Assembly (NCBI GenBank): GCA_030141605.1
Contig: JAQGDQ010000865.1
Location: forward strand, 5,981-69,980
DNA length: 64,000 nt
Source: Tubiluchus corallicola
Lineage: Eukaryota > Priapulida > Priapulimorpha > Priapulimorphida > Tubiluchidae
Direction of reading: 5' to 3'
Shown here: positions 1,510 to 58,330 of the stretch, piece after piece
Position numbering within the stretch: the first letter of the stretch is position 1
Layout: each line of letters begins with the position of its first letter
Made by a program: the position numbers and the translations under genes
The notes under the pieces: generated by a model
Database searches by the model: none
What the model saw: the letters and a program-made list of their open reading frames with translations, nothing else
Told to the model about the DNA's origin: nothing

Positions 1510-1657
1510 TTTGACGCCGCGCGACTTTAACTCTTACGGCTCTCGACGCGGTAACGACGCCGTGATGATGCGTGGAACATTCGCTAACATCCGCCTGGTG
1601 AATAAGTTCATGGACAAGGCGGGACCGAGGACCATACACATACCCACCGGTGAAGAG
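1510..1657 (+). CDS. ACO1: ACO1/IRP1 coding exon (fourth from last)
   Basis: This exon encodes the segment [19 protein letters not shown] followed by [18 protein letters not shown] and ends TGEE. It is a near-exact match to the swivel-domain region of cytosolic aconitase / iron regulatory protein 1. The family interconverts citrate and isocitrate when it carries a 4Fe-4S cluster; without the cluster it binds iron-responsive elements in mRNAs. The [11 protein letters not shown] block belongs to the ligand-binding arginine region of the aconitase C-terminal domain. The acceptor is TTTTTAG at 1503-1509 and the donor is GAG|GTGAGC. One nt finishes the preceding codon and the exon ends in phase 0. 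The next exon continues in frame. The cytosolic rather than mitochondrial form is chosen because the whole C-terminus follows IRP1. Confidence 0.95.
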
Positions 1658-3954: not shown

Positions 3955-4091
3955 ATGAGTTTCATCGCTAACTCTGGTTTCTCTGCAGAACGCATAAATC
4001 TTTCGCCTTTTACTAAAGATTTCCGTGCAGAGGAACAAATTAATGAGTCTTTAATAATTTCTCTACGCCTTGCTCATCAGCAAGGTAATAA
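3955..4091 (+). other. Exon-like reading frame behind a TATA-like box, unassigned
   Basis: An ATG at 3955 opens MSFIANSGFSAERINLSPF and runs to LRLAHQQ, where a donor-like CAAG|GTAATA follows. A TATA-like CCTTTATAAGC lies about 20 nt upstream of the ATG. This could be the promoter and first exon of a transposon later cut by the hAT MITE at 4175, or chance. I do not recognise the protein. Confidence 0.25.
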
Positions 4092-9514: not shown

Positions 9515-9700
9515 GGAGTGAAAGCCGTGATTGCTGAAAGTTATGAACGCATCCATCGTAGCAACCTGGTCGGCGTGGGCATCGTACCGCTGCAGTACCT
9601 TCCCGGAGAGTCCTCCGAGACCCTTAAGCTTACCGGGAAAGAGACTTACTCGATTCATATCCCCGAGAACTTAAAACCGGGACAGGAGTTGACCGTGAAG
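9515..9700 (+). CDS. ACO1: ACO1/IRP1 coding exon (second from last)
   Basis: Sixty-two codons: [20 protein letters not shown], then [19 protein letters not shown] and [26 protein letters not shown] is a signature stretch of the aconitase swivel domain, and PENLKP is shared with IRP1 near its C-terminus. The acceptor is TTGTTCCAG and the donor AAG|GTAAGA; both ends are phase 0. The following intron (9701-13405) contains two large minisatellites. Confidence 0.96.
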
Positions 9701-9794
9701 GTAAGAACGTTGTTATTTGTTTATTTATTTATTATTTATGCATACAAAGAAGACGTTAATGTAATATGGTCAAACAGGTCATTGCACTCATGTT

Positions 9795-11610
9795 TTTGTT
9801 TGCCGGACCTCGCTTTTAGGGATGTCGGAAAATTCGGACAAACTCTGGTCCATTAAAAAGTCCCAAATACTTCGGACACAGTCCGTTATTTCGTGAAGTG
9901 ACCGCTAGTTGGTGGGGCGTCACTTTCTTTACATCCAAGCAACGTGTAACGACACGTGTGTAGCTGACCGCTAGTTGGCAGGCCGTCACTTTGTTTACAT
10001 CCAAGCAACGTGTAAAGACACGTGTAGCTGACCGCTAGTTGGCAGGCCGTCACTTTGTTTACATCCAAGCAACGTGTAAAGACACGTGTAGCTGACCGCT
10101 AGTTGGCGGGGCGTCACTTTCTTTACATCCAAGCAACGTGTAACGACACGTGTGTAGCTGACCGCTAGTTGGCGGGGCGTCACTTTCTTTACATCCAAGC
10201 AACGTGTAATGACACGTGTGTAGCTGACCGCTAGTTGGCGGGCCGTCACTTTGTTTACATCCAAGCAACGTGTAACGACACGTGTGTAGCTGACCGCTAG
10301 TTGGCAGGCCGTCACTTTGTTTACATCCAAACAGCGTGCAATGACACGTGTCTAGCTGACCGCTAGTTGGCAGGCCGTCACTTTGTTTACATCCAAACAG
10401 CGTGCAATGACACGTGTCTAGCTGACCGCTAGTTGGCAGGCCGTCACTTTGTTTACATCCAAGCAACGTGTAACGACACGTGTGTAGCTGACCGCTAGTT
10501 GGCAGGCCGTCACTTTGTTTACATCCAAGCAACGTGTAACGACACGTGTGTAGCTGACCGCTAGTTGGCAGGCCGTCACTTTGTTTACATCCAAACAGCG
10601 TGCAATGACACGTGTCTAGCTGACCGCTAGTTGGCCGGCCGTCACTTTGTTTACATCCAAGCAACGTGTAACGACACGTGTGTAGCTGACCGCTAGTTGG
10701 CAGGCCGTCACTTTGTTTACATCCAAACAGCGTGCAATGACACGTGTCTAGCTGACCGCTAGTTGGCAGGCCGTCACTTTGTTTACATCCAAGCAACGTG
10801 TAACGACACGTGTGTAGCTGACCGCTAGTTGGCAGGCCGTCACTTTGTTTACATCCAAGCAACGTGTAAAGACACGTGTAGCTGACCGCTAGTTGGTGGG
10901 CCGTCACTTTGTTTACATCCAAACAGCGTGCAATGACACGTGTCTAGCTGACCGCTAGTTGGCAGGCCGTCACTTTGTTTACATCCAAGCAACGTGTAAC
11001 GACACGTGTGTAGCTGACCGCTAGTTGGCAGGCCGTCACTTTGTTTACATCCAAACAGCGTGCAATGACACGTGTCTAGCTGACCGCTAGTTGGCAGGCC
11101 GTCACTTTGTTTACATCCAAGCAACGTGTAACGACACGTGTGTAGCTGACCGCTAGTTGGCAGGCCGTCACTTTGTTTACATCCAAGCAACGTGTAAAGA
11201 CACGTGTAGCTGACCGCTAGTTGGCTGGGCGTCACTTTGTTTACATCCAAGCAACGTGTAATGACACGTGTAGCTGACCGCTAGTTGGCGGGCCGTCACT
11301 TTGTTCACATCCAAGCAGCGTGTAAAGACACGTGTAGCTGACCGCTAGTTGGCGGGCCGTCACTTTGTTTACATCCAAGCAGCGTGCAATGACACGTGTA
11401 GCTGACCGCTAGTTGGTGGGCCGTCACTTTGTTTACATCCAAGCAGCCCATAACGACACGTGTGTAGTTTGTATGTCAGCATGTTTAGTGGTTTACAGAC
11501 AATTATGCCGAATTATTTGAGTCAATTGTTAACAGTTTTTATATAGTTTTGCAGGCCCGTACTTAGGCATTTTTGAGACAATTAGATGATTGATTCTACA
11601 TTGCCATGAG
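9795..11610 (+). mobile_element. Tigger-like element with amplified interior
   Basis: The left part (GCCGGACCTCGCTTTTAGGG, TCGGACACAGTCCGTTATTT) and the right part (TATTTGAGTCAATTG, TTTTGAGACAATTAG) match the single-copy relative at 59175-60065. In this copy the interior 66-bp segment has expanded to about 24 units. A reverse partial copy lies at 34460-34900. Exact termini are not resolved. Confidence 0.55.
9895..11465. repeat. Minisatellite, 60-66-bp unit, about 24 copies
   Basis: The repeated words are GACCGCTAGTTGGCAGGCCG, TCACTTTGTTTACATCCAAG and CAACGTGTAACGACACGTGT. Two unit types alternate irregularly, one with CCAAGCAACGTGTAACG and one with CCAAACAGCGTGCAATG. Long open frames on the - strand are a by-product of the unit length. 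Confidence 0.95.
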
Positions 11611-11869
11611 TCTAATACATGGTGCCTACTATATTAGCTTAGTATCGGTAAATATGGACAGTCAGCAAATTATGGAACACTTTGATCAAAGTGAAATTGA
11701 TGGATTTTTAACCTCAAATTTTCGCAAACTCGACCTTCAAACAGCTCGGTTTCCGCGGTCACATACATCTCGTATCACTGAAAGAGCTTCCTAAATACCG
11801 TTTGCACTGAATGTGTAGCAATAATCCATAAAAAATATGGGTAAAAGTACAGAAAAGTACAGGTCTATA

Positions 11870-12112
11870 CACCCTCGATCTGACTCAACTTCGACTATAA
11901 GGGACGATTTTTTTCGGTCCGGAGGTGTCCCTTATATCCGAGGTTGAGCTTTAAGGGACATCGGATATAAGGGACGATTTTTTTCTGTCCAGAGGTGTCC
12001 CTTATATCCGAGGTTGAGCTATAAGGGACATCGGATATAAGGGACGATTTTTTTCCGGTCCCGAGGTGTCGCTTATATCCGAGGTTGACATCAGATTTAC
12101 TACAACAAGCGT
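11870..12112. repeat. Tigger-type terminal motif repeated three times
   Basis: ATATAAGGGACGATTTTTTT and GTGTCCCTTATATCCGAGGT recur three times with a spacing near 72 bp. The same motifs form the ends of the element at 41963-42628. The adjoining 11640-11870 is the reverse complement of 42110-42300, so this is a related but rearranged copy. Confidence 0.6.
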
Positions 12113-12130
12113 GGTTTATTCATTCATTTA

Positions 12131-13409
12131 GATAGTATAATTCAGCGTTCAAGTAAATGTACATCAATATTATGCTTTTACAGCTGTATAATTCAGCGTT
12201 CAAGTAAATGTACATCAATATTATGCTTTTACAGCTGTATAATTCAGCGTTCAAGTAAATGTACATCAATATTATGCTTTTACAGCTGTATAATTCAGCG
12301 TTCAAGTAAATGTACATCAATATTATGCTTTTACAGCTGTATATCAGCGTTCAAGTAAATGTACATCAATATTATGCTTTTACAGCTGTATAATTCAGCG
12401 TTCAAGTAAATGTACATCAATATTATGCTTTTACAGCTGTATAATTCAGCGTTCAAGTAAATGTACATCAATATTATGCTTTTACAGCTGTATAATTCAG
12501 CGTTCAAGTAAATGTACATCAATATTATGCTTTTACAGCTGTATAATTCAGCGTTCAAGTAAATGTACATCAATATTATGCTTTTACAGCTGTATAATTC
12601 AGCGTTCAAGTAAATGTACATCAATATTATGCTTTTACAGCTGTATAATTCAGCGTTCAAGTAAATGTACATCAATATTATGCTTTTACAGCTGTATAAT
12701 TCAGCGTTCAAGTAAATGTACATCAATATTATGCTTTTACAGCTGTATAATTCAGCGTTCAAGTAAATGTACATCAATATTATGCTTTTACAGCTGTATA
12801 ATTCAGCGTTCAAGTAAATGTACATCAATATTATGCTTTTACAGCTGTATAATTCAGCGTTCAAGTAAATGTACATCAATATTATGCTTTTACAGCTGTA
12901 TAATTCAGCGTTCAAGTAAATGTACATCAATATTATGCTTTTACAGCTGTATAATTCAGCGTTCAAGTAAATGTACATCAATATTATGCTTTTACAGCTG
13001 TATAATTCAGCGTTCAAGTAAATGTACATCAATATTATGCTTTTACAGCTGTATAATTCAGCGTTCAAGTAAATGTACATCAATATTATGCTTTTACAGC
13101 TGTATAATTCAGCGTTCAAGTAAATGTACATCAATATTATGCTTTTACAGCTGTATAATTCAGCGTTCAAGTAAATGTACATCAATATTATGCTTTTACA
13201 GCTGTATAATTCAGCGTTCAAGTAAATGTACATCAATATTATGCTTTTACAGCTGTATAATTCAGCGTTCAAGTAAATGTACATCAATATTGTGCTTTTA
13301 CAGCTGTATAATTCAGCGTTCAAGTAAATGTACATCTATATTATGCTTTTACAGCTGTATAATTCAGCGTTCAAGTAAATGTACATCTATATTATGCTTT
13401 TACAGCTGT
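12131..13409 (+). repeat. 51-bp minisatellite carrying the ACO1 splice acceptor
   Basis: About 25 almost perfect copies of a unit containing ATTATGCTTTTACAGCTGTA, TAATTCAGCGTTCAAG and TAAATGTACATCAAT. One unit near 12345 lacks 2 bp; otherwise only scattered substitutions appear, near the 3' end. The last unit runs into the final ACO1 exon: ATGCTTTTACAG|CTGT is both the repeat and the true exon boundary, and homology stops 4 nt inside the exon. Because 51 is divisible by 3, the - strand stays open for hundreds of codons; that frame is not a gene. Confidence 0.97.
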
Positions 13410-13516
13410 CGGATGGTCGCAGTTTTCAAGCAACATGCCGTTTTGACACCGATCCAGAGCTGGAGTACTTCCGCCACGGAGGCATCCTCAACTACATGAT
13501 ACGACAGATGCTCTAA
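13406..13516 (+). CDS. ACO1: ACO1/IRP1 last coding exon
   Basis: Thirty-seven codons, [20 protein letters not shown] then [16 protein letters not shown] and TAA. This matches the extreme C-terminus of IRP1 (human ends ...[13 protein letters not shown]). The acceptor TATGCTTTTACAG is the terminal unit of a 51-bp minisatellite, the only acceptor whose downstream frame continues the family sequence. Phase 0 joins it to LTVK of the previous exon. With the other three exons it completes the C-terminal domain of the protein. Residues upstream of LTPRDF lie outside the window. Confidence 0.96.
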
Positions 13517-13679
13517 TTGTTCTCCTCGTTTAGCGATTGTTGAATTTAAACCGATAATTTAACCTCGACGACAGTATTTTTTATAAAGTTGGATATTTTA
13601 TCTTCGGTGTAGCGTTGCCAGGTCATTTAATATCCATCTCTGTTCGGAAAAACATTTAGTTTGCTTTTGGCAGGATACT

Positions 13680-14072
13680 TTTGCTTCAACTGTTTGTAGT
13701 GTGCTAGTTTCGTTGTCAATGGAGCAATGAAATGCTGGCTTACTAAATGAAACTAGTTGTACTTAGGCATTGCTTCAACTGTTTGTGGTGTGCTTGTTTC
13801 ATTGTCAATAGATCAATGAAATGCTGGCTTACTAAGTGAAACTAGTTGTACTTAGGTATTGCTTCAACTGTTTGTGGTGTGCTAGTTTCATTGTCAATAG
13901 AACAATTAAATGCTGGCTTACTAAATGAAACTAGTTGTACTCAGGCGTTGCTTCAACTGTTTGTAGTGTGCTACATGTAGTTTCATCATCAAAAGAGTGA
14001 TGAAATAGTGACTTACTAAATGAAATAAGTTATGCTTGAACATTGCTTCAACTGTTTGTGGTGTGCTAGTTT
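13680..14072. repeat. 89-bp tandem repeat just after ACO1
   Basis: GCTTCAACTGTTTGTGGTGT recurs at 13683, 13772, 13861, 13950 and 14045 with companion words ATGCTGGCTTACTAAATGAA and CTAGTTGTACTTAGGC. It probably lies in the ACO1 3' UTR, given the distance to the next polyadenylation-like signal. Confidence 0.85.
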
Positions 14073-14844
14073 CTTTATGAATCTTCATGTTCCTTCATTG
14101 GCTTAAACTCAACCGTAGCGAACTTTATGTTATAATCAAAGTGTGATGCATTTACTTTACGAATTTGCTGCAAAAACATAAGTTTGGCTCACAGCTTGGT
14201 TGGTTTTTTTTTACAACTAAGAACTTGTATGGCTTTTAAACAATAATTTTTGCTCAAATGTGGAGCTTTGCTTCGTATAAAAAAACACAATAAAAAAGGA
14301 AAGACAGGATGTGTGAACCGGCATCAGGAATCCAGAAACAACTAAATGAAAACCGCAAAATGCAACAAGGCATATAAGTACAGTCACAACACACGATAAG
14401 AATAACAAAACGTCACAGTAACACCGATTTAAGAATACCAGAAAAAATGAGCAGTTCTTTCTCTTTATTGTGGTTTTTTCTTACTTGTTCTGTTCTCGTT
14501 TACTAAGAACTATCTCTGTATTATTCATTTTACATGCACGTGATACATTAAACTCGCATATGTGTTTAACTGATAGCTGTACGATACACAAGAAAATGTA
14601 CGATACACGAAAAAATATACGATACACGGCAGTATCAATACGCAGCTTTGCTTAGCTTGAATTTTTTGTTTAGACAACTTAACACTGTGATTTTTTTTGT
14701 AAGATAATAACTGATGTAAATTAGTTCGTTTAGCAGCTTGCTATGAAAAGCATTGAATATTATGATGTCTGCAATTGGCAGTGGAAGGCAGACAATTGTC
14801 TTGAGGTGAAGTAGTTTCCTGGGAATTCTTCTTCTTCCCAGCTT

Positions 14845-21250: not shown

Positions 21251-21561
21251 TAGAAGAAGCCATTCTGTGAGTCGTCGCTTATCAAACAAAAAACCCGACT
21301 CTGAACACTGCCAGTGTCACGTGCAAAAATTTTCCAATAAACACTCATTGTGCTTAGATTGTAAATAAACTTTACTGAAAAGAATGATTTTCCACATCAT
21401 TCAAATTCAAACTTTTTGCTGTGAACTGTTTATTGAATACGTTTTCCTGTTCACTGAATAAAACGATGATTTCAATACTTTTATTTCTGCTGTTATTACA
21501 TACATAAGTGAGGGTTTTCTAAACATATCCCTAACAACTTTTGTTTTCCACCAAGACTTAC

Positions 21562-21716
21562 TTCGCTCCCTTCATAATTGAAAATACCAACGACGCTGAC
21601 GGGCACGAGTTTCGAGCAAGCACGACCCAACGCCCGGCGACCAAGTGCGAATACGAACGGTACGTTCTGTTCTTGCGCAAGCCTGATTATATTGTGCAAT
21701 GCGTCGTCCAAACCAC
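21562..21716 (-). CDS. SECISBP2L: SECISBP2L exon 16, core of L7Ae RNA-binding domain
   Basis: Encodes GLDDALHNIIRLAQEQNVPF then VFALGRRALGRACSKLVPVS and VVGIFNYEGSE. This is the L7Ae-type fold that contacts the kink-turn of SECIS elements. The FALGRRALGR string follows SECISBP2L; vertebrate SBP2 has FALNRKALGR. The acceptor is TTACTTCGCAG and the donor GAA|GTAAGT. Two nt complete the glycine codon begun in exon 15, giving QSKGGLDDAL. Confidence 0.97.
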
Positions 21717-21870
21717 CTGCGAAGTAATGTAGACACATTAGACGCATCGTAAAACGTGTAATTAATGTTATTAGTTCTTTAGAGAAACTTTAATTGGTGA
21801 ATAATTTACAGTTATGTACAGCAGTGACTAAAAAGATGAAAACTGTTTAAAACTCGTCTGTCTGACTTGC

Positions 21871-37461: not shown

Positions 37462-38020
37462 GATATTGAAATGTTGGCATCCTTCTGTCTTCGGAAGACA
37501 ATGGAGTGTGCGCCAAGAGAGTCAGTTACTGATCACAGTGATGGAGCTGCAGCGTCGACTGTGGCTGAGCAGTGCGATCCTTGAACGTCTCCAGGGCGCA
37601 CGCCTGGGCAAGGTGTATGGAGATCCTGAGTTCCCCAGACAACAGGAAGCCCCTCTCTTCCTCCCTGGTGTAGTCCGAAGGAAAGCGGAGCGATACGTTT
37701 GGCACCAGGTTGGCTGCAGGAGCTGCCGGAGTCAGTGAGCATGCTGCACTGGTCTGCCTTCGGAGCTCCACTCCTGATTTGGAAGGTTTACTCCTCTACA
37801 CATGGCCGTTGGGTCACTTGATCTCCTCCGCCCTCTAGCCGTTGGCTGCTTGTACAGCTCCTCTGCCTAGCGTCGAGATACAGTGTGGGCATCCCGCAAG
37901 CCTACAGCACCTGGTATTCCTAGGCGGTCACCCATCCAAGTACTAACCAGGCTCTATGTTGCTTAACTTCAGTGATCAGACGAGAACCGGTATTTTCAAC
38001 ATGATTTGGCCAGTCACTGA
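37462..38020 (-). mobile_element. 5S-headed composite repeat (SINE3-like)
   Basis: Read on the - strand, a 5S rRNA-like head (38016-37898) runs directly into a body of about 430 nt containing GCATGCTCACTGACTCCGGC and CTGCAGCTCCATCACTGTGA. The body recurs at 34062-34350. A 5S-derived pol III head joined to a repeated body is the definition of a SINE3-class element. The alternative is a repeat inserted next to a stray 5S copy. Confidence 0.6.
37898..38016 (-). rRNA. 5S rRNA-like sequence (SINE head or pseudogene)
   Basis: The - strand has ACCGGTTCTCGTCTGATCAC, then GAAGTTAAGCAAC, CCTGGTTAGTACTTGGATGG, GTGACCGCCTAGGAATACC and AGGTGCTGTAGGCTT. These are the A-box, intermediate element and C-box regions and the 3' half of animal 5S rRNA in the correct order. 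The 5' stem half (TGACTGGCCAAATCATG) pairs poorly with the 3' end, and no T-run terminator follows. It therefore looks like a derived copy rather than a functional gene. Confidence 0.75.
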
Positions 38021-49590: not shown

Positions 49591-50770
49591 CCCAATACTT
49601 TTAGAAAAAATTACAGTTACAGTATTTTTGTGAATTTAAATCATAATAAAAGTTTTTTCTGTAACAACACAACAATGTTTTGCATATTAGAAACATTGCT
49701 TTTATTTTCTTCTACTTTTCTTTCTTTTCTGCTTTCCCTTCCTCTTTTTTTCAATATTCTTTATCACTCTCACAAGTTTGCTAATACATCGATGAGAGAT
49801 GGTAGCAACAATAGTAACAATAGAAGTGGTTGTGATGTAATAACAATCATGCTATAATAACTCTGCAGTGCCTATAGCAGTAGCAACTTTTCATTTTACC
49901 AAAATATTCTTGCGTGCCAACTGGAATACAAATTGCATGGCAGTGAAGTGGTTAATTCTGTTCAAGATGATATGGGTGACAGTCTGGTTTGCAATGCACA
50001 GGAGTGTGATGGGATGATACTTGAAAGCCTGGGTGTGGACTATATCAACGGATCAAAAATTGTGTTTAAGATGATTAAGATGAATAAGATTAACATATTT
50101 GAATAGGATTTTCTTCCCGGTTAGCAAAAACTCAATTACGAGAAGTCTAAAAAGAGTATGTGGGAGAGCGAAGGCAGAGGCAGTTTTAGCTGTCATCACC
50201 TTCCTCATCTCTTCAGTGAAGCCATCATTTTTACAAGTTCGAAAGCATAATTTAAAAAAATGACCAAATCATGTAACTAGTTTTGATTTTCTATTGACTT
50301 GATTTATTAATATATCCTTATAAATTTAAATACTGATTATGTTTTAATATAAATTTATTAGAGTCTTTGCGTAAATTATAATGAACATTTGCCTTTGCTT
50401 TGTCGTTCATTTTCATAGACTGCTGTTTCATCACAGTCGATGGGTTACACCACTGTTCATAGGAACACTGGCGTTATACAGAATAGAATAGAATTATCAT
50501 AATCTAGTAGCTTCTAGCTATGTATCATGGGTTAATTTTGAGTGTCACGTTTTGTTCTGTATGTACATGAACACATTCGCATCGTATTATAGCAAATTAT
50601 AAAAAAAGCTAAAAAAACGGCCACTAAAAATAAAGTAAGATGAAACGAAGTTTCAGGAACCAAGGACTAGTTTGCATATAGGCAGAGTTGCCAGCTCGTT
50701 GACCTGTCATCAACTCCACACGTGAAATTGGTTTTGAAAACAAGAACGAAATTTCATTGATATCTCAATA

Positions 50771-51967
50771 ATGGTTGTACAACGAGCATCGCGCGTTGTT
50801 GTTGATTCAGGAGCTTTTATTAAGTGTTTGAATTTACAAAATTTAGGCGAAACTATTTACAGTACGAAAGAAGTGGTGGCCGAAATCAAGGATCGACAGA
50901 CAAGGCAACGTCTTCAAGTTCTTCCGTATGAATTAAATTTACAAGAGCCAGCGCCAGAATGCATTCATTTTGTAACAGAATTTGCAAAAAAGACCGGAGA
51001 TTATGCTTTCTTGTCTGCTACTGATATCAAAGTACTTGCGCTGACTTATCAGTTAGAGAAGGAAATCGTTGGTGTAGCTCATCTCCGAAACGAACCCTCC
51101 AAGACAGCTCAGGGATCAACTATCAAAGGACCTGTTAAAGATAATGTCGTTTTACCAGGTTTTTTTCACCCAACAAACGAACGGAACAAACCTAGTGCAA
51201 GCCTTGATGAGGTCTCTGCTGATCAGACAGAACTTTCTTGTGGTGAGGAAGAAAATGCCGAATCACTGTTGCAAAATACAGAAGCTACTCGAAACAAAGA
51301 CGAAGATGACCGCGGCGATTCTGAGCACAGCAGTGACAGTGACGAAAATGATGGTGGTGGTTGGATAAACAAATCTAATATTGAATCCGTTAAACTGCAG
51401 TCTGGAGAGGGTTACGGTCAGTCGCACGTTGAAGTTGCTTGTATAACTACCGATTTTTCCATGCAGAACGTGCTTCTACAGATAGGTTTACACGTGATGT
51501 CCGTAGACGGCATGCTTATCAATCAAATTAGAACTTACGTGTTGCGTTGTTACTCCTGTTTCAAGATCACGAAGATGATGACAAAAGCATTTTGTCCGAA
51601 TTGCGGCAATAAAACTCTAAAGCGCGTCGCAGCAACGTTCGAAGAGGACGGATCGGTCACGTATTACATTTCCAAACGGCCTATTAATGTACGAGGATCC
51701 AGGTATTCTTTGCCACTTCCACAGGGTGGAAAACATGGATTCAATCCCATTTTAACCGCAGACCAGCGAACTCCACATATGATGCCATCCAGGAAAGCCT
51801 TGGAGAAGACGAATGCGCTGGATCCCGATTACGTAGGAAAAGTATCTCCGTTTGCTATGAATGATGTGACAAGTCGGGCCGCTCAGTTGACGATGGGCAG
51901 TGGTAAAAAGAGAAACTGGATGCAGCGAAATCCTAATCAGACTCGCAAGCCACACAGGAAGAAGTGA
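50771..51967 (+). CDS. NOB1: NOB1, 20S pre-rRNA D-site endonuclease
   Basis: A 398-aa intact frame, against about 410 in human. The N-terminal PIN nuclease domain opens RVVVDSGAFIKCLN. Acidic residues likely to bind metal are D12, E38 and D85 (the last in LSATDIKVLALTYQ). Residues about 150-200 are an acidic, disordered insert. A zinc ribbon follows, with C260, C263, C275 and C278 in RCYSCFKITKMMTKAFCPNC. The C-terminus carries SRYSLPLPQGGKHGFNPIL and a basic end, KPHRKK. In the family this enzyme cuts the 3' end of 18S rRNA in late 40S precursors in the cytoplasm. No intron is present here, unlike vertebrate NOB1. The ATG at 50771 is the first in frame with the PIN domain. Confidence 0.97.
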   Translation: MVVQRASRVVVDSGAFIKCLNLQNLGETIYSTKEVVAEIKDRQTRQRLQVLPYELNLQEPAPECIHFVTEFAKKTGDYAFLSATDIKVLALTYQLEKEIVGVAHLRNEPSKTAQGSTIKGPVKDNVVLPGFFHPTNERNKPSASLDEVSADQTELSCGEEENAESLLQNTEATRNKDEDDRGDSEHSSDSDENDGGGWINKSNIESVKLQSGEGYGQSHVEVACITTDFSMQNVLLQIGLHVMSVDGMLINQIRTYVLRCYSCFKITKMMTKAFCPNCGNKTLKRVAATFEEDGSVTYYISKRPINVRGSRYSLPLPQGGKHGFNPILTADQRTPHMMPSRKALEKTNALDPDYVGKVSPFAMNDVTSRAAQLTMGSGKKRNWMQRNPNQTRKPHRKK

Positions 51968-57400: not shown

Positions 57401-57859
57401 CTGTGACAGACTTTCTCGAAGCCAGATGCTCTGAAGCTGTTAGAGGTCCTTGAAGAACGTAGCAAAAACAGAGCAAAACCTACTAGCCTTTTCAGATCTT
57501 TCTCCAATCTGAGAAAAAGAAATCGCCCAACGCTCTAGTTTAGTTCAAGCGTAGCTATTTTCAAGCACTTTGTTTGGTTTTTTTCAAAAAGTATGGAAGA
57601 TGTGAAGTGGCACCCAGAACACTAATGCAGCCCTTCGTGTTACGGGGCTGTTGTAGTAGCCCCGGCTCCATTCACACCGCAAAGATCGTGTGGAGTAACC
57701 CTTTCCATTGATTACTGGATTCTGTTGAAAAGCCAATTAATTAGAATCAATTGAGCATAAGAAATCTAAGCAAACTAACAATGGTAATATGGAATTTGTT
57801 TGGCCACCTGTAAGGATGAACTTTGGACAGCGTTGACCACTGCAGTGACATAGTGGTAT

Positions 57860-58330
57860 GATGATGATGATAATGATGATGATGATGATATATCATTTAT
57901 TATGCCTCTATAATTTGCAGGCTCAGTACATCAGTATTAAAAATGAAACCATGTACATATATTAGTCATGCACATATATACTTGATGATGGTGATGATGA
58001 TGATGACGACGACGATGACGGTGATGATGATGATGATGACGACGACGGTGATGATGATGATGATGATAAATCATTTATTACACCTTTATTTGCAGGCTCA
58101 GTACATCAGTATTAAAAATGAAACCATGTACAGGTATTAGTCATGCACATATATACTTGATGATGGTGATGATGACGACGACGGTGATGATGATGATGAT
58201 GACGACGGTGATGATGATGATGTTGATAAATCATTTATTACACCTTTATTTGCAGGCTCAGTACATCAGTGTTGACAATGAAACCATGTACATATATTAG
58301 TCATGCACATATATACTTGATGATGATACA
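57860..58330. repeat. Compound array, 160-176-bp unit with (GAT)n core, 3 copies
   Basis: GCTCAGTACATCAGT begins copies at about 57920, 58096 and 58256. Each continues through ATGAAACCATGTACA and TCATGCACATATATACTTGA into GAT/GAC triplets. It lies in the MPC2 intron before exon 4. Confidence 0.9.

Follow-up and report, generated by a model that had tools for sequence, protein, structure and literature searches.

The acceptor of the last intron of the ACO1/IRP1 gene is present in 25 tandem copies in the window, the 64-kb stretch of DNA analysed here, each copy carried by one unit of a minisatellite with a 51-bp period (Table 1). The proposal of the first-pass annotation, that the real last-exon acceptor was multiplied by a minisatellite, is borne out: the array holds 25 units, and the acceptor core is found in every one of them. 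Arrays of this kind have been described in lancelet genes as mirages, minisatellite-like duplications of intron/exon boundaries (PMC3087553), a class to which the first-pass annotation had not linked the array. We consider it probable, from the sequence, that the ACO1 array is a near-neutral boundary minisatellite of the mirage type and that the transcript is spliced mostly at 13406. A tandem duplication across the intron/exon boundary would have grown until the last ACO1 intron carried 25 copies of its 3' splice site, the array would have no function, and most splicing would join 9700 to 13406, since the real exon directly adjoins no other acceptor.

Table 1. Features of the ACO1/IRP1 gene and of the tandem array at its last intron/exon boundary (window coordinates)
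Feature	Position	Strand	Remark	Evidence
ACO1 exon	1510..1657	+	ends judged by eye	tblastn
ACO1 exon, 41 codons	8253..8375	+		tblastn, splice dinucleotides
Penultimate ACO1 exon, 62 codons	9515..9700	+	phase-0 end, donor GTAAGA	PDB match, tblastn
66-bp minisatellite, 24 copies	9899..11467	+	last ACO1 intron	TRF
70-bp tandem repeat, 2.7 copies	11896..12088	+	last ACO1 intron	TRF
51-bp minisatellite, 25 units	12135..13409	+	intron truly ends in the last unit; first 4 nt of the exon still homologous	TRF, unit-by-unit count
Unit 2, sample consensus unit	12186..12236	+	decoy acceptor 12233-12234	
Unit 5, 49 bp, 2-bp deletion	12339..12387	+	gives decoy 4 (exon start 12337) a different tail	
Unit 24	13306..13356	+	decoy with the same 62 nt upstream and 4 nt downstream as the real acceptor	
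Unit 25	13357..13407	+	includes the true AG, 13404-13405	
Last ACO1/IRP1 exon, 36 codons and TAA stop	13406..13516	+		PDB match, tblastn

The assignment of the last exon to ACO1/IRP1 is secure on sequence similarity: translated together, the last two exons match human IRP1 (2b3x, E 1.1e-39), 3sn2 (2.6e-39) and IRP2 (6vcd, 9e-29) in the PDB. A tblastn search with human IRP1 puts four ACO1 exons in the window, and the acceptor and donor dinucleotides at these exons are as expected. The upstream part of the contig consists of N, and the view of the gene is limited to the four exons in the window. The last intron is 3705 bp long, with tandem array making up 82% of its length. A full-length match to the U5 spliceosomal RNA (96.3 bits, model positions 1-117 of 117) lies at 3969-4086 on the plus strand, within an ACO1 intron. 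Downstream of the gene's stop codon, the first AATAAA is at 14289, and an 89-bp tandem repeat of 4.3 copies occupies 13681-14073 (plus strand) in the probable 3' UTR. A search of the assembly for PF00694 gave 11 matches, two being the ACO1 exons in the window; a second IRP1 gene was rejected after six of the other nine were compared with the ACO1 exons, the best reaching 52% identity in a bacterial-looking sequence (L026).

Introns, Noggin and IRP1 mark this as animal DNA, and the assembly probably includes bacterial contigs as well. Noggin gave one strong match in the assembly (E 5.6e-63) and phosphagen kinase six, the best of them like creatine kinase; contigs L022, L023 and L025-L030 are densely filled with long open frames and carry aconitases that look bacterial. 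Assembly searches returned no match for the GFP family or for innexin, with the positive controls of both also silent, and none for COX1; the lack of GFP matches, read beside its silent control, argues weakly against a lancelet host. The rest of the window includes a full-length 5S rRNA match (92.2 bits, 37899-38017, minus strand), NOB1 as one open frame of 409 codons (50738-51964, plus strand; human NOB1, 6g18, E 3.4e-109) and an exon encoding a domain of L7Ae type (PF01248, E 8.7e-7; 21499-21789, minus strand), which we take to come perhaps from a SECIS-binding protein 2 gene.

TRF delimits the array at 12135-13409 with a period of 51, 25.0 copies and 99% matches. The first-pass annotation had begun it at 12131; the array proper starts four letters later, and GATA at 12131-12134 is flank. 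Its unit length of 51 bp is correct for 24 of the 25 units and fails only for unit 5, which measures 49 bp, and the motif CAGCTGT, counted 25 times from 12181 to 13403, is accordingly spaced at 51 nt in 23 of 24 intervals and at 49 nt in one. The 15-nt core TGCTTTTACAG/CTGT, with the slash marking the boundary, is present in all 25 units and TATGCTTTTACAG in 24, and 21 units equal the 51-bp consensus exactly. Single-base variants comprise an A>G change in unit 23 and an A>T difference common to units 24 and 25, and the core check found the AG kept in each of the 24 decoys. Unit alignment also upholds the proposed stop of homology 4 nt inside the exon, the array ending at 13409 and the exon starting at 13406. 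Copies of the 51-bp consensus and of the acceptor cores are confined to the array within the 64-kb window, with none on the minus strand, and when positions 13300-13700 were searched against the whole assembly (343.5 Mb, 2344 contigs; very common words passed over), 13 of 13 matches fell at the array locus, contig C2183.

To predict the products of the decoys, exon end 9700 was joined computationally to all 24 in turn. An early stop within the terminal exon resulted in 24 of 24 cases, as the first-pass annotation had expected of any decoy. Its further expectation of an invariable LYNSAFK tail before the stop holds for 23 decoys; decoy 4, which precedes the 49-bp unit, reads LYISVQVNVHQYYAFTAV and then a stop. 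Splicing at 13406 gives 36 residues and a stop, so the loss from a decoy-spliced product had been overstated at 37 residues.

The decoys had also been described as identical acceptors, which is true of the 15-nt core but not of a stretch of 20 intronic and 3 exonic nucleotides, where mismatches to the real site number zero in unit 24, one in 22 decoys and two in unit 23. Because the identity of unit 24, the only decoy with zero mismatch, reaches 62 nt upstream of the site and 4 nt beyond it, proximity alone must tell it from the real site, and judged by sequence a score limited to the 20+3 nt stretch cannot separate the two. The acceptor itself looks intrinsically weak, with a CTTTT tract and without a strict yUnAy branch-point motif, and probably depends on exon context. 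No strict yUnAy motif was found at -18 to -50 of the real site, and the nearest branch-point-like motif is TTCAA, with its A at -33, which every unit contains. AG dinucleotides lie at -31, -39 and -52 upstream of the real AG, and in each unit 29 nt without AG precede the acceptor AG. According to the available text of PMC1431707, splicing can pass over AGs within about 12-15 nt of a branch point; skipping of the AG at -31 would thereby be allowed. A local folding model gave the real AG an unpaired value of 0.21, lower than the 0.33-0.45 of the decoys, and dinucleotide-shuffle folding z-scores were -1.47 for one unit, -1.81 for two units, -2.86 for units 24-25 and -0.24 for unit 25 plus exon. 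We rejected the idea that RNA hairpins hide the decoys on the basis of these z-scores and of the local model, in which the real AG is less open than those of the decoys.

The edges of the array suggest how it may have arisen. At its left end the sequence is GATA/GTATAATTC and at its right end ACAGCT/GTCGG; both ends are accounted for by a 51-bp duplication running from one GT dinucleotide to another. The founding event would have been a tandem duplication of the intron/exon boundary through 2-bp microhomology, pairing the GT at 12135-12136 with the GT at exon positions +3/+4. Units 24 and 25 have T where units 1-23 have A; T would be the older base, one unit having mutated from T to A before its copies came to make up 23 of 25 units, with T retained in the pair adjoining the exon. 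Read from this one sequence, the identity of 21 units implies that they spread or were homogenised recently. Variants are gathered in units 23-25, and among the first 22 units only unit 5 deviates; the 5' edge unit is not divergent, and escape from homogenisation is seen at the exon side only. A mobile or viral source of the unit was rejected, as a 23-nt piece of it had no exact match in viral contigs or in the genome contigs searched.

Coincidence of an array with a splice site is unremarkable in this sequence. Counting tandem arrays of at least 100 bp with a period of at least 10, we found that 16 arrays cover 16.6% of the window, versus 8.9% of 121,847 sampled non-N bases from 15 loci elsewhere, and the array density of the host may exceed 8.9% given that some sampled contigs are bacterial-looking. 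When the arrays were circularly shifted against seven ACO1 boundaries placed to about 3 nt, a mean of 1.16 overlaps was obtained, with at least one in 56.6% of shifts; the observed number is 1. It is the 25 near-perfect copies that are striking, rather than the overlap with a splice site. A crude scan for further mirages in the window and the 15 sampled loci yielded six rows and established no second case. Apart from the array itself, the rows were a 160-bp repeat with an open frame at window position 58256, one each in L012 and L017, and two in L011; the open frame in L012 is itself repetitive, and that in L017 was not recognised by eye. The 160-bp repeat (57858-58325) has a unit with an acceptor-like TTTGCAG/GCTCAG, and no exon was recognised there.

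The first-pass annotation had named three possible outcomes for the decoys: no harm, a load on splicing or an isoform switch. Under a load, a real share of ACO1 transcripts might use the 24 decoys, yielding a truncated and probably misfolded IRP1, so that IRP1 output falls and the array is mildly deleterious. The decoys are near-perfect copies, all lie upstream and are hence transcribed before the real site, and every unit brings both its AG-free stretch and its branch-point-like TTCAA. We nevertheless regard such a load on splicing as unlikely, because the available texts report regular splicing for lancelet mirages (PMC3087553, PMC3902484) and choice of the distal site in human CBS 844ins68 (PMC2630376), and growth to 25 units would be easier if the decoys were mostly silent. 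That the AG is intact in all decoys is not informative here, as the array looks too young. The precedents of the lancelet mirages and CBS 844ins68 likewise favour, by analogy, a harmless array. Against near-neutrality stand the larger number of decoys than in published cases, the indistinguishable unit 24 and the less open real AG in the folding model; were there leakage, unit 24 would be the likeliest decoy. An error of assembly, in which collapse or over-extension of a short repeat has made the array or its copy number wrong, is improbable. Assemblers miscount where units are identical, as 21 of 25 are here, the array is a single locus in one assembly and one haplotype, and the accounts available tell of misassembly, or of differences between assemblies, in published mirages (PMC3087553, PMC3902484). 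The ordered variants (the deletion in unit 5, unit 23 and units 24-25) nevertheless fit a real locus, as do the in-frame exon directly after the array and a window without N.

Regulated use of the decoys would have a different consequence, namely an IRP without its last 36 residues that is free of iron control, in a ratio tuned by array length. The stop falls in the terminal exon for all 24 decoys, and the loss is close in size to the 34 C-terminal residues whose deletion, in the available text, let human IRP2 resist iron-dependent degradation (PMC2267205). That result concerns human IRP2, however, and in the same text wild-type IRP1 and IRP1 without domain 4 were unresponsive to iron treatment, with disrupted structure among the authors' explanations; the near-identical units also suggest a young array and not a conserved switch. 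We therefore hold an isoform switch to be very improbable. More speculative still, and the least probable proposal that we entertain, is that by analogy the decoys might serve as a tunable bank of 3' splice sites, with an iron-unresponsive IRP lacking the last 36 residues and array length acting as an individual iron set-point; a truncated IRP isoform blind to iron is unlikely.

If splicing is normal, as in the near-neutral reading that we prefer, the locus would be a natural experiment: splicing would pass over 24 near-perfect acceptors, including one that matches the real site over 66 nt, and take the 25th, and position, exon context or branch point as the mark of a 3' splice site could be tested within one intron. 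Mirage-type arrays would be more widespread than the published cases cited here if the host is no lancelet, and minisatellite-rich genomes should then hold many. If the decoys leak, an iron regulator would be truncated at its C-terminus.

We found no published report of the ACO1 array in the open-licence literature searched, and its closest relatives are the lancelet mirages. Those described in the available texts affect Adh3, the globin genes BflGb6 and BflGb9, TnC and PGBD5, the last added and TnC cited by PMC3902484 (PMC3087553, PMC3902484), with units of 10-160 bp across genes and, in BflGb6, six and three units in two haplotypes (PMC3087553). From Adh3 data and globin RT-PCR, the authors suggest no interference with regular splicing, adding that cryptic sites could be used (PMC3087553), and the Adh and TnC mirages are said to "not generate aberrant mRNAs" (PMC3902484). 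The ACO1 array shares with them, as far as these texts describe them, tandem minisatellite-like units that span an exon-intron boundary, splice signal included, and edge units that differ from homogenised inner ones; cluster-boundary units escape homogenisation in BflGb6 (PMC3087553), and in ACO1 this is seen on the exon side only. It differs in its 25 units, against six and three in BflGb6, such that 24 near-perfect decoys may act differently, in its higher identity, in having just 4 exonic nt per unit, and in a host that is probably not a lancelet.

Human genes offer further parallels within the texts available. CBS 844ins68, a 68-bp direct duplication of the intron 7/exon 8 junction, likewise yields an additional acceptor, with the distal site strongly favoured; the text of PMC2630376 reads "donor" and the title it cites reads 3' splice site. 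Unlike the ACO1 array, it is one extra copy rather than an array, and it takes in part of exon 8. The human CBS 31-bp VNTR c.1444_1467+7(16_21) is similar in having 16-21 units that, by notation, lie across an exon/intron boundary; by the same notation it spans a donor, unlike the ACO1 array, and its length polymorphism is documented. NAGNAG tandem acceptors also give a single intron several successive acceptors, but these are 3 nt apart and share one branch point, whereas the ACO1 array repeats complete sites every 51 nt. Judged by its sequence, the ACO1 array is thus an unusually large example of the known mirage class.
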